Shown here: in pieces, positions 8,072 to 27,898 of the stretch
How positions within the stretch are numbered: position 1 is the first letter of the stretch
Layout of the letters: every line of letters begins with the position of its first letter
DNA from: Anaerolineae bacterium
GTDB taxonomy: Bacteria; Chloroflexota; Anaerolineae; Aggregatilineales; Aggregatilineaceae
Direction: 5' to 3'
DNA: 64,000 nucleotides
NCBI GenBank assembly: GCA_018432315.1
Contig: JAHDLB010000027.1
Span: forward strand, 62,001 to 126,000
Position numbers and translations under genes: made by a program
Notes under the pieces: model-generated
What the model was told of the DNA's origin: nothing
Database searches by the model: none
What the model saw: only the letters and a program-made list of their open reading frames with translations

Positions 8072-8188
8072 CCCTCTCATCTTCCAGAATTCGTTATTCT
8101 GCCGGAATTGGCACCATGCCGGAACAAGTTCGCGGTCGGTTGCCGAGGTTTCACAGGGCCGGTCCCTCCACCTCTCTGGATAAAAGGG
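8072..8188 (-). promoter_or_regulatory. SAM-I (S-box) riboswitch aptamer
   Basis: The minus strand reads through the S-box signature: ATCCAGAGAGGTGGAGGGA, then CCCTGTGAAACCTCGGCAACC, then a P3/P4 arm with GGTGCCAATTCCGGC. P1 closes by pairing CCCTTTTATC (8179-8188) with GATGAGAGGG (8072-8081). The 3' P1 arm TGAGAGGG (8072-8079) can instead pair with CCTTCTCA (8035-8042), an antiterminator that excludes both P1 and the terminator. SAM binding would therefore stabilise P1 and cause termination before metY. The family is firmly recognised; the switching scheme is inferred from the pairings. Confidence 0.95.
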
Positions 8189-21226: not shown

Positions 21227-22897
21227 TCATGACGTTTGGCCGCTTTTCGGCGATCGACTGTCAGGACTCGCCAGCATCGCCCCCTCGTACAGGTCGCGCC
21301 GCTGGTAGAGGATCATGCCGGTGCCGTAGAAGTCGGTCGGAATCACGCGCACGGCGTCGTACAGCTCCTCGAAGCGGGGGTTTTGCGCCAGCCCGTTGCG
21401 CACGAACATCTCCATGAACACGATATAGGACGGCAGGTAATCGAACACGATCGCGGGCGGGACGGCGTAGTTGCTGCCCTCGATCACCAGGTCCCGGTCG
21501 AGCGGGTAATAATGCGATACCTCCGGCGTGACGAGGCCCACCGTGTCCAGGATGCGGGCGCGGCTGTAATAGCCGATCGCGCCGATGTCGCCCGCCGCGA
21601 CGAGCGTGTCTTCGTCCACGCCGAAATTCTCGCGCAGCGTCCCGGCCATCTCGCGGTAATAGATCTCGATCTCGTGCCATGCCATGTCCGGTGCAGGGCG
21701 GTTGGGGCCGTGATCGGGGTGCAGCGTCCACGAGTTGAGCGAGATCGCGATCCAGGCCAGCCCGGCAGCCGCCATCGCGCCCTGGGCGACCTGTGGACGC
21801 TTGAGCGCTGCGGCCAGCGATTCCGCAACGCCCCAGAGGCCCAGGATGATCGCGACCAGGTAGGCGGGCAACGGCGGGGCGAGGTACCACCGGAAGATGA
21901 GCGGGTTCATGGCGCTGAACGCGGCCACGTACAGCCACGGAAATGCCAGAAACGGCAGCAGGCGCGGCTGGCGGCGCAGCGCGTAGACGGTTCCCATGAC
22001 CGCCAGCGCGGGGTAGAGCACGATCCCGACGACGATGCCGGGCGTGCCGAACGCTTCTTGTTCCAGGAACGGGGTGGCGATGTGCTGGAGCAGGCGGGTC
22101 AGGGCGCTCCAGTCTTCGACGATGTAGGCCACCTGCTTGGCGCTGAGCGAGCGCGACAGCAGCGTGCCGAAATAGGCCCAGCTAAACCCGTACCACGGCA
22201 GCAGGATCGCGCCGAACCACAGCCAGCTTCCCCAGGGCAGCCGCGCGATCCAGGGCGCAGCGGGTTGGCCCTCGCCCGGCGTGCGGCGCTCGCGCCAGCG
22301 GGTGACAAGCTGGTGCGCCAGCAGCGGTCCCACCCAGATCAGCGAATCGATGCGCGTGAGGATGCCCAGCGCGGCGAAGAGTCCGGTCCGGCGGTGGTGG
22401 CCGGACGTATAGGCGACGGTCGCGGCGACCATCCACAGAATGGCGACGCTGGTTTCCATGCCGCCGATGGCAAACGTCACGCTCATCGGCGCGATGGCCC
22501 ACACGGCGCCGGTCACGGCGGCGGGCAGGATGTGCCGCGTCAGGCGATACACCAGCAGGGCCAGCAGAGCAGCGGTGGCGGCGTCGGCGAGCGCGTTGGT
22601 GATCAGCGCGAACCAGGGATAGTCTTCGCCTCCCGTGGTCCCGGCGATCCCCGCCATCAACAGGGTATACAGCGGGGTGGTCGTGCCCAGCGTGCGCGAG
22701 CCGGCATTGTAGACGAAGCCGTGCCCCTCGACGATGTTGCGGCTGTAGCGGAAGGTGATGAACGCGTCGTCCACGGTGCGGGGCTGCGGCACGATGCGGG
22801 CGGCGAGCGCCATTACGACGATTACGGCCAGAACAGGCCACAGCGCGCGTGAATGCGGCGCCGGGGTGGGGGATGAGACGTCGGACGTGGCGGTCAC
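21227..22897 (-). CDS. GT-C family membrane glycosyltransferase
   Basis: This 556-aa polytopic membrane protein probably transfers sugars from a polyprenyl-phosphate donor at the outer face. The first external loop has the acidic motif DDAFITFRYSRNIVEGHG, typical of the arabinosyl/mannosyl-transferase-like GT-C group. About ten hydrophobic segments follow. The soluble C-terminal part contains AGDIGAIGYYSRARILDTVG, a block I associate with this group. The start is GTG at 22895-22897, with GAAGGAAAC upstream. It diverges from the leucine T-box promoter. The acceptor and donor are not deducible. Confidence 0.82.
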   Translation of the reverse strand: MTATSDVSSPTPAPHSRALWPVLAVIVVMALAARIVPQPRTVDDAFITFRYSRNIVEGHGFVYNAGSRTLGTTTPLYTLLMAGIAGTTGGEDYPWFALITNALADAATAALLALLVYRLTRHILPAAVTGAVWAIAPMSVTFAIGGMETSVAILWMVAATVAYTSGHHRRTGLFAALGILTRIDSLIWVGPLLAHQLVTRWRERRTPGEGQPAAPWIARLPWGSWLWFGAILLPWYGFSWAYFGTLLSRSLSAKQVAYIVEDWSALTRLLQHIATPFLEQEAFGTPGIVVGIVLYPALAVMGTVYALRRQPRLLPFLAFPWLYVAAFSAMNPLIFRWYLAPPLPAYLVAIILGLWGVAESLAAALKRPQVAQGAMAAAGLAWIAISLNSWTLHPDHGPNRPAPDMAWHEIEIYYREMAGTLRENFGVDEDTLVAAGDIGAIGYYSRARILDTVGLVTPEVSHYYPLDRDLVIEGSNYAVPPAIVFDYLPSYIVFMEMFVRNGLAQNPRFEELYDAVRVIPTDFYGTGMILYQRRDLYEGAMLASPDSRSPKSGQTS

Positions 22898-23006
22898 TTT
22901 CGTTTCCTTCGGAGCAGTGCGTCACCGGATGCGCATTAGACCCGATCTTACTTGCGGAGCGGCGGCCACGCAACCGGGGCAATCGCCCGGCACCTTCAAA
23001 AAAGCC

Positions 23007-23035
23007 TTGACAAGCACCCCTGGCACGGCTAGAAT
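23007..23035 (+). promoter_or_regulatory. Strong promoter of the tRNA-containing T-box leader
   Basis: A perfect TTGACA (23007-23012) and TAGAAT (23030-23035) are separated by 17 bp. The predicted start is near 23042, about 17 nt before stem I. Confidence 0.85.
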
Positions 23036-23242
23036 GTGGGCTACGTTGACATACTATCGGCTGTGAACGGAAGTAGTAGGTCATCACCGCAGTGAGCCGG
23101 GGCGAGTGGAAACCCGGCAGCGCGCCCACGGTGAGCGCCAGGACCGAACTCGTCCGGGAGCCGCGCGGCTGAAACGAGTAGGCCGCGCCGGGAGCGCCCG
23201 TTACGCGCGAAATGAGTGGGTGGCATGCCCACCGGCGAACAA

Positions 23243-23315
23243 GGGCCCGTAGCTCAGCTGGGAGAGCGCCACAATGGCATTGTGGAGGCCAAGGGTTCGA
23301 GCCCCTTCGGGTCCA
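23243..23315 (+). tRNA. tRNA-Ala (anticodon GGC)
   Basis: All four helices of the cloverleaf are complete. The acceptor GGGCCCG/CGGGTCC includes the G3-U70 wobble (23245 with 23312) that is the alanine identity element. The D arm is GCTC/GAGC with GG in the loop. The anticodon stem is CCACA/TGTGG with loop ATGGCAT (anticodon GGC at 23276-23278). The T arm is AAGGG/CCCTT with loop TTCGAGC. The discriminator is A at 23315 and CCA is not encoded. The 5' flank GAACAA (23237-23242) pairs perfectly with the 3' flank TTGTTC (23320-23325), extending the acceptor stem as one rod. It lies inside a T-box leader. Confidence 0.95.
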
Positions 23316-23361
23316 TCTCTTGTTCCGGATGACGCCACCAACCAGGGTGGTACCGCGGAGT

Positions 23362-23406
23362 CCTCTTCGTCCCTGATGAACCAGGGAATATGACGAAGGG
23401 GATTTT
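23362..23406 (+). terminator. T-box Rho-independent terminator
   Basis: CCTCTTCGTC (23362-23371) pairs with GACGAAGGGG (23392-23401), with an inner CCCTG/CAGGG pairing. ATTTTTCATTTTTC follows. The 5' arm is shared with the antiterminator. Confidence 0.92.
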
Positions 23407-23490
23407 TCATTTTTCTTTAAGGTCGCGAGAGCAGATTTAAGTTAAAGTCTGTGCAGGTGAGTTCGCTGAGACAGAGCAAAGGACGATCCG

Positions 23491-23628
23491 ATGAATCGCA
23501 GCCCACAACAGACCCTCTCCGACCGTTTGCGCCAACTCCTGGAAACGGTGCGCCAGGCGCTTAGCCCGCGCCGTCCCGCTCCCGTCCCGATTCCGCTGCG
23601 CGACGAGGTGATACGCCGTCGCCGCTAG
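23491..23628 (+). CDS. Small ORF between T-box and leuS (45 aa)
   Basis: This short frame begins MNRSPQQTLSDRLRQLLETV and ends in an Arg-rich tail (EVIRRRR). AAAGGA lies 7 nt before the ATG. The predicted product has one amphipathic helix, a Pro/Arg-rich linker and no membrane segment. Leu codons are spread through it (six in 45) rather than clustered, so it does not look like a classical leucine attenuator peptide. A GC-rich terminator lies about 100 nt downstream. It could be a small protein under the T-box or a fortuitous frame. No family is recognised. Confidence 0.4.
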   Translation: MNRSPQQTLSDRLRQLLETVRQALSPRRPAPVPIPLRDEVIRRRR

Positions 23629-23729
23629 CGGGTAGACTGACGGTTGATGGCGGGCGCGGCGCGTGTGAAACGAGCCTGCGGCTGAAGGCTGTGTCCGGCC
23701 CGCGTCGATCCGCGATCGGCCCACCGTCC

Positions 23730-23764
23730 CGGCCCAGCCGGAGGCGCCTGGGCCGATTTTGATT
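23730..23764 (+). terminator. Second terminator upstream of leuS
   Basis: CGGCCCAG (23730-23737) pairs with CTGGGCCG (23748-23755), followed by ATTTTGATT. It lies between the T-box terminator and leuS, so a T-box transcript must pass a second barrier to reach leuS. Confidence 0.65.
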
Positions 23765-23776
23765 GAGGAGGGACCG

Positions 23777-23869
23777 GTGAAACCAGCCGTGTCGATCATC
23801 GTGGAACGGACATCGCGCTGCCTTCTCGCGGTCCGCCCGAGGCGCGGAGAGGCAGACCTGACCGGATGA
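23777..23869 (+). pseudogene. Possible truncated Nudix N-terminus (30 codons)
   Basis: A GTG start with GAGGAGGG just upstream opens a 30-residue frame whose middle (AVSIIVERTSRCLLAVRPRR) resembles the first strands of Nudix hydrolases. The frame stops at TGA 23867-23869, before any Nudix box, and no frame downstream continues it. It may be a gene remnant, a tiny leader ORF or chance. The good ribosome-binding site is the main reason to note it. Confidence 0.25.
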
Positions 23870-23945
23870 CTTTGGGCGTCGCGCGCCGCGCGACCTTTGC
23901 GCTCGCTTGTCAACAGCTCACACATCATGGAGTGGAAAAACGGCA

Positions 23946-26732
23946 ATGGCTGATAAATATACCCCGCAAGAGATAGAGGCACGTTGGGCCCAGCGATGGG
24001 AGCGCGACGGACTCAATCGATCGACGATTGACCCGGACCGGCCCAAGTTCTACGCGCTGACCATGCTGCCGTATCCGAGCGGTGACCTGCATATCGGGCA
24101 CTGGTACGCGATGTCGCCATCCGATGCGCGGGCGCGGTGGCTGCAAATGAAAGGCTACAACGTCCTGTTCCCGATGGGGTTCGACGCGTTTGGCCTGAAC
24201 GCCGAGAACGCGGCGATCAAACGCAAGATTCACCCCAAAATCTGGACCGAGCAGAACATCGAGTTCATGCGCCGCCAACTGCGCACGATGGGCGCCATCT
24301 TCGACTGGGAGCGCGAAGCGGTCACCAGTCACCCGGACTACTACAAGTGGACGCAGTGGTTCTTCCTGCAGTTCTACAAGCACGGCCTGGCCTATCGCAA
24401 AATGGCGGCGGTCGATTTCTGCCCGCAGTGCAACACGACCCTGGCCCGCGAGCAGGTGTGGGGCGATGATCGTCACTGCGAGCGCTGCGGCACGCCGGTG
24501 ATCAAGAAAGACCTGGAGCAGTGGTTTTTCCGCACGACCGACTACGCCGACGAACTGCTCGACCACAGCCAGATCGATTGGCCGGAGCGCGTCAAGATCA
24601 TGCAGACCAACTGGATCGGGCGCAGCGAGGGCGCGCACGTCGTCTTCCGCACCGAGGACGGCGACCCGATGGAGGTCTTCACCACGCGGCCCGATACGCT
24701 GTGGGGCGCGACGTTCATGGTGCTGGCGCCGGAACACCCGCTGGTGGAGAAGGTCACCACGGCGCAGCAGCGCGCGGCGGTCGAGGCGTACGTCGCCGAG
24801 GCGGCCCGCAAGAGCGAGATCGACCGCACGGCGGAAGGTAAGGAGAAAACGGGCGTCTTCACCGGCGGCTATGCGATCAACCCGGTGAACAGCGAGCGCA
24901 TCCCGATCTGGATCGCGGACTACGTGCTGATCAGCTACGGCAGCGGCGCGATCATGGCCGTGCCGGCGCACGACCAGCGCGACTTCGAGTTCGCCCGCAA
25001 GTTCGACCTGCCGATCCGGATCGTGATCCAGCCCGAAGGGGCCGAGGACCTGAATCCGGACAACATGACCGAAGCCTGGCCGGGCGAGGGCGTGATGGTC
25101 AACAGCGGCCAGTTCGACGGCACGCCCGCGCACTATACCGGCGACGGCAAGAAGAACGAGGCGGTCGGCGTGGTAACCCGCTGGCTGGAGGAGCAGGGCA
25201 CCGGCCACGCGGCGGTGAACTACCGTCTGCGCGACTGGTTGATCAGCCGCCAGCGCTACTGGGGCGCGCCGATCCCGATCGTCTACTGCGACGACTGCGG
25301 CGTGGTGCCCGTGCCGGAAGACGACCTGCCTGTGCTGCTGCCGCACGACGTGGACTTCATGCCGACGGGCGAAAGCCCGCTGAAGTATCACGAGGGCTTC
25401 CTGAATACGACGTGCCCGCACTGCGGCGGTCCCGCCAAGCGCGAGACGGACACGATGGACACGTTCATGTGCTCGTCGTGGTACCAGTATCGCTACCTGA
25501 GCCCGCGCTACGATGGCGGCCCGTTCGACCCGGAAGAGGGCGCCTACTGGCTGCCGGTGGACCAGTACACGGGCGGCATCGAGCACGCGACGATGCACCT
25601 GATGTACACGCGGTTTTTCACCAAGGCCATGCGCGACTGCGGCGTGTTCGACCGGACGAAGGCCATCGCCGAGCGGATGGGCCGCGACACGGCGCACCTG
25701 TTCGACGAGCCGATGCTGCGCCTGTTCAACCAGGGCATGATCCTGGGCGAGCCGCGTGACGGTCACCTGGTCGTGGCCGAGGGAACGTTCGATGGTGGGA
25801 AGCTCAACGCGGCCCGCGTGCGCGTCGTCGGCAGCCTGGACGGCGTTTTGGTGGGCGCGGGGCAGGTGGCCGGCGAGGTGATGAAACGCACCGAGACGAC
25901 GCTGATCGTCCAGCCGCCGGAGGGGCGGTCCGTGGTGGTCGATACGGACGACCGGACCGTGTTCGACATCCCCGGCTTCGGCAGCGACGCGACGATCAAC
26001 CAGATCAAGCACCACCTGGAAGTCGAGAAGATGTCCAAGACGCAGGGCAACGTCGTCGCGCCGGATGAGCTGGTCGAGCAGTACGGGGCCGACACCGTCC
26101 GCGCCTACCTGATGTTCGCTTTCCGTTGGGACCAGGGCGGCCCGTGGGACAGCCAGGGCATTCAGGGCGTGGTCCGCTGGCTGAACGACGTGTGGGCGCT
26201 GGTGACCGAGGGCGCTCCCCAGGGCGGCGGCGATCCCGCCGCAGCGCGCGACCTGCGGCGCAAGGTGCACCAGGCGATCAAGAAAGTGTCCGACGGGCTG
26301 GAGTCGTTCGCCTTCAACACGGCGGTCGCCGCGCTGATGGAGCTGAAGAACGAGCTGCAGGACGCCCGCCGGGCGTCCAAAGTCGAGCGGGCGGTTTGGG
26401 ACGAGGCCATCACGAACATGCTGCTGCTGATGGCGCCCTTCACGCCGTTCATCGCGGAGGAACTGTGGGAGCGCACCGGGCACCCGTACAGCATCCACCG
26501 GCAGGCGTGGCCGGAATACGACCCGGAGATCGCCGCCGAGGACGAGATCACGCTGGTGGTGCAGGTCAACGGCAAGGTGCGGGACCGCATCCAGGTGCCC
26601 GCCGGGATCGCCGAGGAAGACGCCAAGCGGCTGGCCCTGGAATCGGGCGGGGCGCAGCGTCACATGGACGGCAAGCCGCCGCGCAAGGTGATCTACGTCG
26701 GCCAGCGCGGCATGGTGAATATCGTCGTGTGA
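23946..26732 (+). CDS. leuS: Leucyl-tRNA synthetase
   Basis: This 928-aa class I synthetase charges tRNA-Leu. The HIGH-type motif is PYPSGDLHIGHW near residues 39-50. A zinc-ribbon-like pair CPQC/CERC lies near 160-185. The CP1 editing domain includes TTRPDTLWGAT and AVPAHDQRD, and KMSKT is at residues 695-699. The block between MILGEPRDG and the KMSKS loop is a long leucine-specific insertion (about 95 residues). ATG 23946 is chosen because synthetase homology begins there (MADKYTPQEIEARW), with GGAG about 12 nt upstream. It is presumed to be the target of the Leu T-box 540 nt upstream, although a second terminator intervenes. Confidence 0.96.
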   Translation: MADKYTPQEIEARWAQRWERDGLNRSTIDPDRPKFYALTMLPYPSGDLHIGHWYAMSPSDARARWLQMKGYNVLFPMGFDAFGLNAENAAIKRKIHPKIWTEQNIEFMRRQLRTMGAIFDWEREAVTSHPDYYKWTQWFFLQFYKHGLAYRKMAAVDFCPQCNTTLAREQVWGDDRHCERCGTPVIKKDLEQWFFRTTDYADELLDHSQIDWPERVKIMQTNWIGRSEGAHVVFRTEDGDPMEVFTTRPDTLWGATFMVLAPEHPLVEKVTTAQQRAAVEAYVAEAARKSEIDRTAEGKEKTGVFTGGYAINPVNSERIPIWIADYVLISYGSGAIMAVPAHDQRDFEFARKFDLPIRIVIQPEGAEDLNPDNMTEAWPGEGVMVNSGQFDGTPAHYTGDGKKNEAVGVVTRWLEEQGTGHAAVNYRLRDWLISRQRYWGAPIPIVYCDDCGVVPVPEDDLPVLLPHDVDFMPTGESPLKYHEGFLNTTCPHCGGPAKRETDTMDTFMCSSWYQYRYLSPRYDGGPFDPEEGAYWLPVDQYTGGIEHATMHLMYTRFFTKAMRDCGVFDRTKAIAERMGRDTAHLFDEPMLRLFNQGMILGEPRDGHLVVAEGTFDGGKLNAARVRVVGSLDGVLVGAGQVAGEVMKRTETTLIVQPPEGRSVVVDTDDRTVFDIPGFGSDATINQIKHHLEVEKMSKTQGNVVAPDELVEQYGADTVRAYLMFAFRWDQGGPWDSQGIQGVVRWLNDVWALVTEGAPQGGGDPAAARDLRRKVHQAIKKVSDGLESFAFNTAVAALMELKNELQDARRASKVERAVWDEAITNMLLLMAPFTPFIAEELWERTGHPYSIHRQAWPEYDPEIAAEDEITLVVQVNGKVRDRIQVPAGIAEEDAKRLALESGGAQRHMDGKPPRKVIYVGQRGMVNIVV

Positions 26733-27520: not shown

Positions 27521-27898
27521 GGACTCAAGCCAACCTGTAAGCCGCGTTCTGTACCCGCCGGATGGTCCGGCAGGCGGTGATCATCTATCTGGGACGCCGA
27601 TTGCTCGACGCCTCGCGCAACCTACCCGGAACTCGAACGGGACGGGCCGCCCCTCGTTCCTGCTTGGTTTTGCTCCCGGTGGGGTTTGCCTGGCCGCCGG
27701 TGTCACCACCGGCGCCGGTGCGCTCTTACCGCACCGTTTCACCCTCACCCTCCCCGTGGGGAGGGCAATACACCTCTCTGTTGCACTATGCCGTCGGGTT
27801 GCCCCGCCTGGCTGTTAGCCAGCACCGTGCCCTGTGGAGCGCGGACTTTCCTCATCTCACGACGCGGTGAGACGCGATCACCCGGTCGACTTGAGTCC
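27521..27898 (-). ncRNA. rnpB: RNase P RNA
   Basis: This 378-nt RNA is the catalytic subunit of RNase P. P1 is closed by GGACTCAAG (27890-27898) pairing with CTTGAGTCC (27521-27529). The universal 5' core GATGAGGAAAGTCCGCGCTC is present, as are GGTAAGAGCGCACC-like and GGTTGCGCGAGG-like internal elements, and the 3' core ACAGAACGCGGCTTACAGG. The size and order fit the bacterial ancestral type A. It is transcribed from a TATAAT promoter at 27907-27912, between serS and the S51 gene. Confidence 0.96.

Follow-up and report, generated by a model that had tools for sequence, protein, structure and literature searches.

A complete tRNA-Ala(GGC) gene inside stem III of leucine T-box leaders in several bacterial phyla

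Introduction

A riboswitch leader is usually regarded as throw-away regulatory RNA. What, then, is a complete tRNA gene doing in the middle of one? The question is raised by a leader preceding leuS in an Anaerolineae bacterium (Aggregatilineaceae, assembly GCA_018432315.1). The DNA studied comprises positions 62,001-126,000 of contig JAHDLB010000027.1, forward strand; this whole stretch of 64,000 nt is called the window, and coordinates below refer to it. A first-pass annotation of the window, made without database searches, had described a tRNA-Ala gene embedded in a leucine T-box leader. That the tRNA occupies stem III of the T-box and that the arrangement is widely spread go beyond what was recognised there.

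Results

Anatomy of the leader

The promoter is followed by stem I (CTC), stem II, IIA/B, GAGUG, the 5' strand of stem III, an inner helix and the tRNA; 3' of the tRNA come the other strand of the inner helix, the 3' strand of stem III, AA, antiterminator, terminator and leuS. The features are as follows.

23007-23035, + strand: sigma-70-like promoter TTGACA-17-TAGAAT (11 of 12 consensus matches; the sole one in 22880-24000)
23065-23157, + strand: T-box stem I, AGUAGUA at 23072-23078 (RF00230 alignment)
23149-23151, + strand: specifier CTC (Leu) (RF00230 alignment)
23164-23187, + strand: stem II with GAA/AGUA S-turn motif (RF00230 alignment)
23189-23203, + strand: stem IIA/B region with CCCGUUA (F-box) (RF00230 alignment)
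23214-23218, + strand: GAGUG, the RRRxG motif 5' of stem III (sequence; present in homologues)
23219-23224, + strand: 5' strand of stem III, GGUGGC, pairing with 23334-23339 (covariation over 141 leaders)
23237-23242, + strand: inner flank helix GAACAA, pairing with 23320-23325, UUGUUC (sequence and fold of 23213-23340)
23243-23315, + strand: tRNA-Ala(GGC) with G3:U70 and A73, CCA not encoded (ARAGORN, Rfam RF00005)
23334-23341, + strand: 3' strand of stem III, GCCACC, then conserved AA (covariation analysis)
23343-23376, + strand: antiterminator with T-box bulge UGGU, core AGGGUGGUACCGCGG at 23344-23358 (RF00230 alignment, fold)
23358-23412, + strand: intrinsic terminator, mutually exclusive with the antiterminator (fold of -24.4 kcal/mol; U tract in sequence)
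23946-26732, + strand: leuS, leucyl-tRNA synthetase, MADKY start, the ORF opening at 23907 (homologues also support it)

The whole Rfam T-box model RF00230 (positions 1-219) is matched by 23054-23377 (E = 1.4e-16), on either side of the tRNA, with a 109-nt insertion between the two arms of stem III. Because of this insertion the leader scores only 75.7 bits. It is therefore absent from default Rfam output, whose gathering threshold of 93 bits is a search setting rather than a biological trait. The alignment bears out stem I with its CTC specifier, stem II and the IIA/B region, all named in the first-pass annotation, as well as the intact antiterminator; the terminator that completed that description is supported by its fold. 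The leader meets the sequence and structure criteria for a T-box, namely a specifier fitting leuS, the S-turn of stem II, the F-box of IIA/B, the RRRxG-stem III-AA arrangement and a UGGU antiterminator exclusive with the terminator, and its insert meets those for a tRNA-Ala, namely cloverleaf, anticodon GGC, G3:U70 and A73. Two programs accept the tRNA: ARAGORN, which finds no other in the 64-kb window, and Rfam RF00005 (62.1 bits), and the G3-U70 identity pair claimed for it is present. The 6-bp pairing that had been noted between the tRNA flanks exists too, nested in the larger stem III.

The promoter described as strong in the annotation precedes stem I. Another one between stem I and the tRNA would have refuted that annotation, and a separate tRNA promoter within the leader is rejected: a promoter scan of 22880-24000 revealed no second sigma-70-like promoter, this interval included. 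Since the tRNA lies 5' of the terminator, it is transcribed whether or not transcription terminates, and it follows, as had been proposed, that every leader transcript contains it. Free-energy folding of the whole leader did not yield the full native T-box fold (z = 0.1); this is expected for a ligand-dependent RNA such as this one, yet it gives no support.

Several further features lie nearby. Between the T-box terminator and leuS there is a small ORF (MNRSPQQTLSDRLRQLLETVRQALSPRRPAPVPIPLRDEVIRRRR; window 23492-23629, + strand), and similar ORFs begin at the equivalent place in many relatives, including the T-box-less genomes G025, G029 and G038. A second short ORF (23801-23869, + strand), shortly 5' of leuS, contains a conserved (C/S)LLA string (TGCCTTCTCGC, with tandem Leu codons) and looks like a leucine leader peptide; it occurs in about 15 relatives, some of them genomes without the embedded tRNA. 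A class A RNase P RNA gene (27522-27893, - strand, 276.6 bits) is situated about 0.8 kb beyond the leuS end on the opposite strand, and a SAM-I riboswitch (94.9 bits) is found at 8074-8186 on the - strand.

The tRNA occupies the apical part of stem III

Bases following RRRxG were compared with those before the AA preceding the T-box core in 141 distinct leaders. The resulting helix has on average 5.8 consecutive pairs, versus 2.4 after shuffling of the 3' strands among leaders (maximum 2.7 in 200 trials). It also covaries, with GC, AU, UA and CG types at most positions and up to six pair types per position. RRRxG-stem III-AA is part of the T-box discriminator according to PMC7583486. Because RRRxG, helix and AA are kept around the tRNA, its location is the apical part of stem III and not a random place; in many Clostridia the acceptor stem is nearly flush with stem III.

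Both components are well preserved. The CTC specifier is found in 138 of 140 full-length homologous leaders (one more has a GCTCGCC context) and a CGTTA-like F-box motif in 128 of 144. Standard pairs make up 99.1% of the acceptor, 100% of the anticodon and 99.7% of the T stem over 95 distinct tRNA sequences, with many compensatory changes, and nearly all exceptions come from two misindexed rows (L125, L229). G3:U70 is present in 143 of 144 distinct leaders and A73 in all leaders examined. Of the 60 Bacillota leaders, 57 encode CCA, whereas only a minority of Chloroflexota leaders do so, and the window leader does not.

The only tRNA-Ala(GGC) found in the family

Besides its own genome, the 371-bp leader with the tRNA inside matches 15 of 17 genomes of the same family at 74-85% identity, and it also matches other families of the order Aggregatilineales. 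Absence from close relatives would have spoken against the first-pass annotation; the tRNA-bearing leader is kept in nearly all same-family genomes. ARAGORN detects tRNA-Ala(GGC) in all 20 related loci that were fetched, and TAGAAT stands 5' of stem I in many relatives as well.

The 16 family genomes with a match to the tRNA-Ala(GGC) pattern (own included) contain one match each, at the T-box site. As far as assembled, no tRNA-Ala(GGC) besides the embedded gene was found in the window's family, so its product must be processed to a mature tRNA if these genomes make use of GGC. The own genome yielded 43 tRNAs, among them a single Ala(GGC) gene, an Ala(CGC) located elsewhere and the expected ligand, tRNA-Leu(GAG), whose discriminator A fits the UGGU bulge. 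Ala(UGC) was not found in this draft genome, probably, as we infer, because its rRNA operons are unassembled. Unassembled parts of this draft could still harbour a second tRNA-Ala(GGC).

Spread across phyla

A search for any tRNA T-loop followed by the T-box core gave at least 119 stretches in 84,980 species genomes and 30 in 298 genomes of the class, together 149 loci; exact patterns were used and these counts are lower bounds. Among the matches listed, ARAGORN recognises a tRNA in 139 of the 149 loci, and all 139 are tRNA-Ala, 137 with anticodon GGC and two with CGC (one contig, counted twice). Ten listed loci lack a tRNA. Two of them (L073, L165) run off the locus end; Exiguobacterium and a few other pattern matches (L082, L087, L096, L097, L112, L113, L130, L173) contain none and were rejected; where these are T-boxes, their F-box GGTTCGAGACC resembles a T-loop. 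Downstream of the matches listed, leuS is found at 129 of 149 loci, a count that includes the tRNA-less false positive L113, whose downstream gene is very likely not leuS. It is the next gene in nearly all listed loci long enough to tell. Where it is missing, the sequence ends early or other genes come first; judged by sequence, the first gene looks like one for an acyl-CoA ligase at L104 and like ilvE at L099, L192 and L198.

A looser pattern matched at least 41 of the 249 genomes searched in the phylum to which Syntrophomonas wolfei belongs. Judged by record titles, carriers in Bacillota are mostly Clostridia (Syntrophomonas, Thermosyntropha, Desulfotruncus, Desulfallas, Pelotomaculum, Symbiobacterium); Chloroflexota and Thermomicrobiota are represented by Ktedonobacter, Dictyobacter, Thermogemmatispora and Sphaerobacter, and some Armatimonadota carry the arrangement too. 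Most carriers are metagenome bins, and two records labelled Proteobacteria and Desulfovibrio are, we infer, probably mis-binned. Chance or an assembly artefact can be rejected, the same composite being present in independent genomes, in a whole family and in several phyla. In a LeuRS tree of 83 carriers, grouping is largely by phylum (7 label changes versus 31.8 in shuffles), which suggests that the arrangement is old, with at most few transfers.

The Chloroflexota and Armatimonadota homologues tested score 46-83 bits with RF00230, less than 93, and examples in these phyla may have been overlooked for this reason. Homologues in Desulfotruncus (130.7 bits) and Symbiobacterium (94.7 bits) meet the cut-off. 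In some Chloroflexota a second tRNA, Ala(CGC), is located directly 5' of stem I in the same orientation (L132, L136, L153, L181, L182, L189-L191, L197, L199). These leaders may carry two alanine tRNAs, which is consistent with a tRNA-bearing transcript.

Relatives with T-box and tRNA apart

In family f3, tRNA-Ala(GGC) is a gene by itself, with promoter-like and terminator-like sequences of its own, and the T-box of the leuS region (L234, L238) has a plain stem III hairpin. In G025 (family f2) and G021 (family f5) the tRNA is still just 5' of leuS and the T-box is gone. The modules are separated in f2, f3, f5 and G038. Since relatives carry them apart, neither module needs the other, and the fused form has been lost several times.

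Two T-box-less genomes, G018 (L233) and G036 (L241), share a different conserved stretch, gtcgtccgctcttctcttatgtag, 5' of leuS. At L133 (identical with L196), stem I is missing, and a T-box antiterminator and terminator come after tRNA-Ala(CGC); this leader, before a gene resembling ilvE, looks decayed or altered.

Discussion

What the sequences show directly is the anatomy, the precise site, the conservation and the presence of the tRNA as a single copy in the family. We consider it probable that this RNA is both a leucine T-box switch for leuS and a constitutive precursor of tRNA-Ala(GGC), tRNA processing and regulation by tRNA-Leu being inferred. One promoter 5' of stem I would give rise, by constitutive transcription, to a leucine T-box leader with stem III capped by the tRNA gene. 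Stem III would tolerate the insertion because only its base and the flanking purines join the discriminator. The T-box would sense charging of tRNA-Leu(GAG) and decide whether RNA polymerase reads on into leuS. The tRNA would be excised from short and long transcripts alike, probably after the termination decision: RNase P would make the cut on its 5' side, and RNase Z or exonucleases would process the 3' side. Such cutting would part the sensing half from the antiterminator and terminator and provide leuS mRNA with a new 5' end. The order of processing and decision, as well as use of the tRNA in translation, are likewise inferences, the latter resting only indirectly on the single GGC copy found in family genomes and on covariation in the tRNA stems.

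Early RNase P cleavage could ruin the switch. In Staphylococcus aureus, RNase Y cuts ordinary T-box leaders, among them that of leuS, in the interval from stem I to the T-box sequence (PMC4608709), so other leaders tolerate cleavage there. With the tRNA placed ahead of the terminator, T-box control alone does not tie tRNA-Ala supply to leucine; a leucine-alanine coupling would require cleavage competing with the termination decision, for which no RNA data exist. The fused arrangement is not required by either module, since family f3 and others have dispensed with it.

How the leader works and why it exists are different questions, and our confidence in an answer to one does not exclude an answer to the other. 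The fusion likely originated from one ancient insertion into a tolerant loop and was kept since both parts are needed. A purely neutral course is a serious possibility to which we give slightly less than even weight: after a single insertion into stem III, the tRNA gene would have been left without a promoter of its own and become locked in, sharing that of the leader without regulatory gain. A tRNA that is always Ala, almost always GGC and always at the same site is what one old event would leave behind, and the repeated parting of the modules in f2, f3, f5 and G038 fits as well; such a history is also compatible with a dual-output leader, as its evolutionary cause. However, the fusion has been kept in several phyla despite repeated chances to part, and strict neutrality is hard to test.

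Regulatory gain could come from processing itself, if RNase P or 3' processing acted on the nascent leader in competition with tRNA-Leu binding. Cleavage before the decision would remove the sensing half and force termination, linking tRNA-Ala maturation capacity to leuS expression. A cut at 23242/23243 would indeed part stems I and II from the antiterminator, and persistence of a losable arrangement in very distant lineages hints at some benefit. Nevertheless, no kinetic or RNA data stand behind this reading, relatives manage with the parts separated, and the distance between the tRNA end and the terminator, roughly 60 to 90 nt, leaves, by inference, only seconds for cleavage. We hold it to be unlikely. 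The same doubt applies to its general form, a widespread T-box class in which RNase P maturation of the embedded tRNA-Ala(GGC) on the nascent leader would set the window for leucine sensing and link supply of one tRNA to the synthetase of another.

There is very little to recommend a decoy in cis, in which an encoded ACCA end would pair with the UGGU bulge of its own antiterminator as the default state until processing: the universal A73 and the CCA of most Bacillota leaders, 20-40 nt from the bulge, would suit it, but neither the window nor most Chloroflexota leaders encode CCA. It is just as hard to believe that the tRNA-like domain is merely a structural cap that is never excised, for which precise placement on stem III and the nearly flush acceptor stems of many Clostridia could be cited, given its full tRNA identity (G3:U70, A73, anticodon), its sole-copy status and the plain hairpin that serves instead in other families.

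The dual-output leader, which we prefer, resembles several known systems. It shares with the leuS transcriptional T-box (RF00230) the CTC stem I, stem II, IIA/B, RRRxG-stem III-AA, UGGU antiterminator, terminator and leuS on the 3' side, and differs in that a whole tRNA-Ala(GGC) gene caps stem III in place of a short hairpin and that the Rfam score is usually below cut-off. In the thrU-tyrU-glyT-thrT-tufB operon of Escherichia coli, tRNAs and mRNA are co-transcribed and the tRNAs are released by RNase P; there, too, tRNA lies 5' of a coding gene on one transcript, whereas here it lies inside a regulatory RNA structure, 5' of a conditional terminator. RNase P is also known to cleave riboswitches such as E. 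coli btuB. Its action on a riboswitch leader is common to both cases (for the window leader as a proposal only), but the btuB substrate is a transient tRNA-like structure and ours a real tRNA gene. The S. aureus leaders cut by RNase Y (PMC4608709) have their cleavage region likewise between sensing and decision domains; there, an mRNA endonuclease starts decay, whereas here tRNA-processing enzymes would yield a stable product.

No T-box with an internal tRNA gene was found in the searchable literature; many subscription papers lie outside it, and a mention in a comparative study in RNA from 2008 (10.1261/rna.819308) is not excluded. Keyword searches of TBDB, of the 2008 T-box survey and of the 2020 review on T-boxes turned up no passage on an internal tRNA gene. 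The tRNA-bearing leucine T-box is a new, widespread form of T-box leader, and many leaders may be missing from public catalogues that rely on the Rfam cut-off. It offers a natural test of how T-box sensing copes with, or exploits, RNA processing midway through the switch, and of the role of stem III. In the window's family the leader appears to serve as precursor to a tRNA of which no other copy was found, in an arrangement whose carriers span several phyla, and this bears on how regulatory and house-keeping RNAs fuse.
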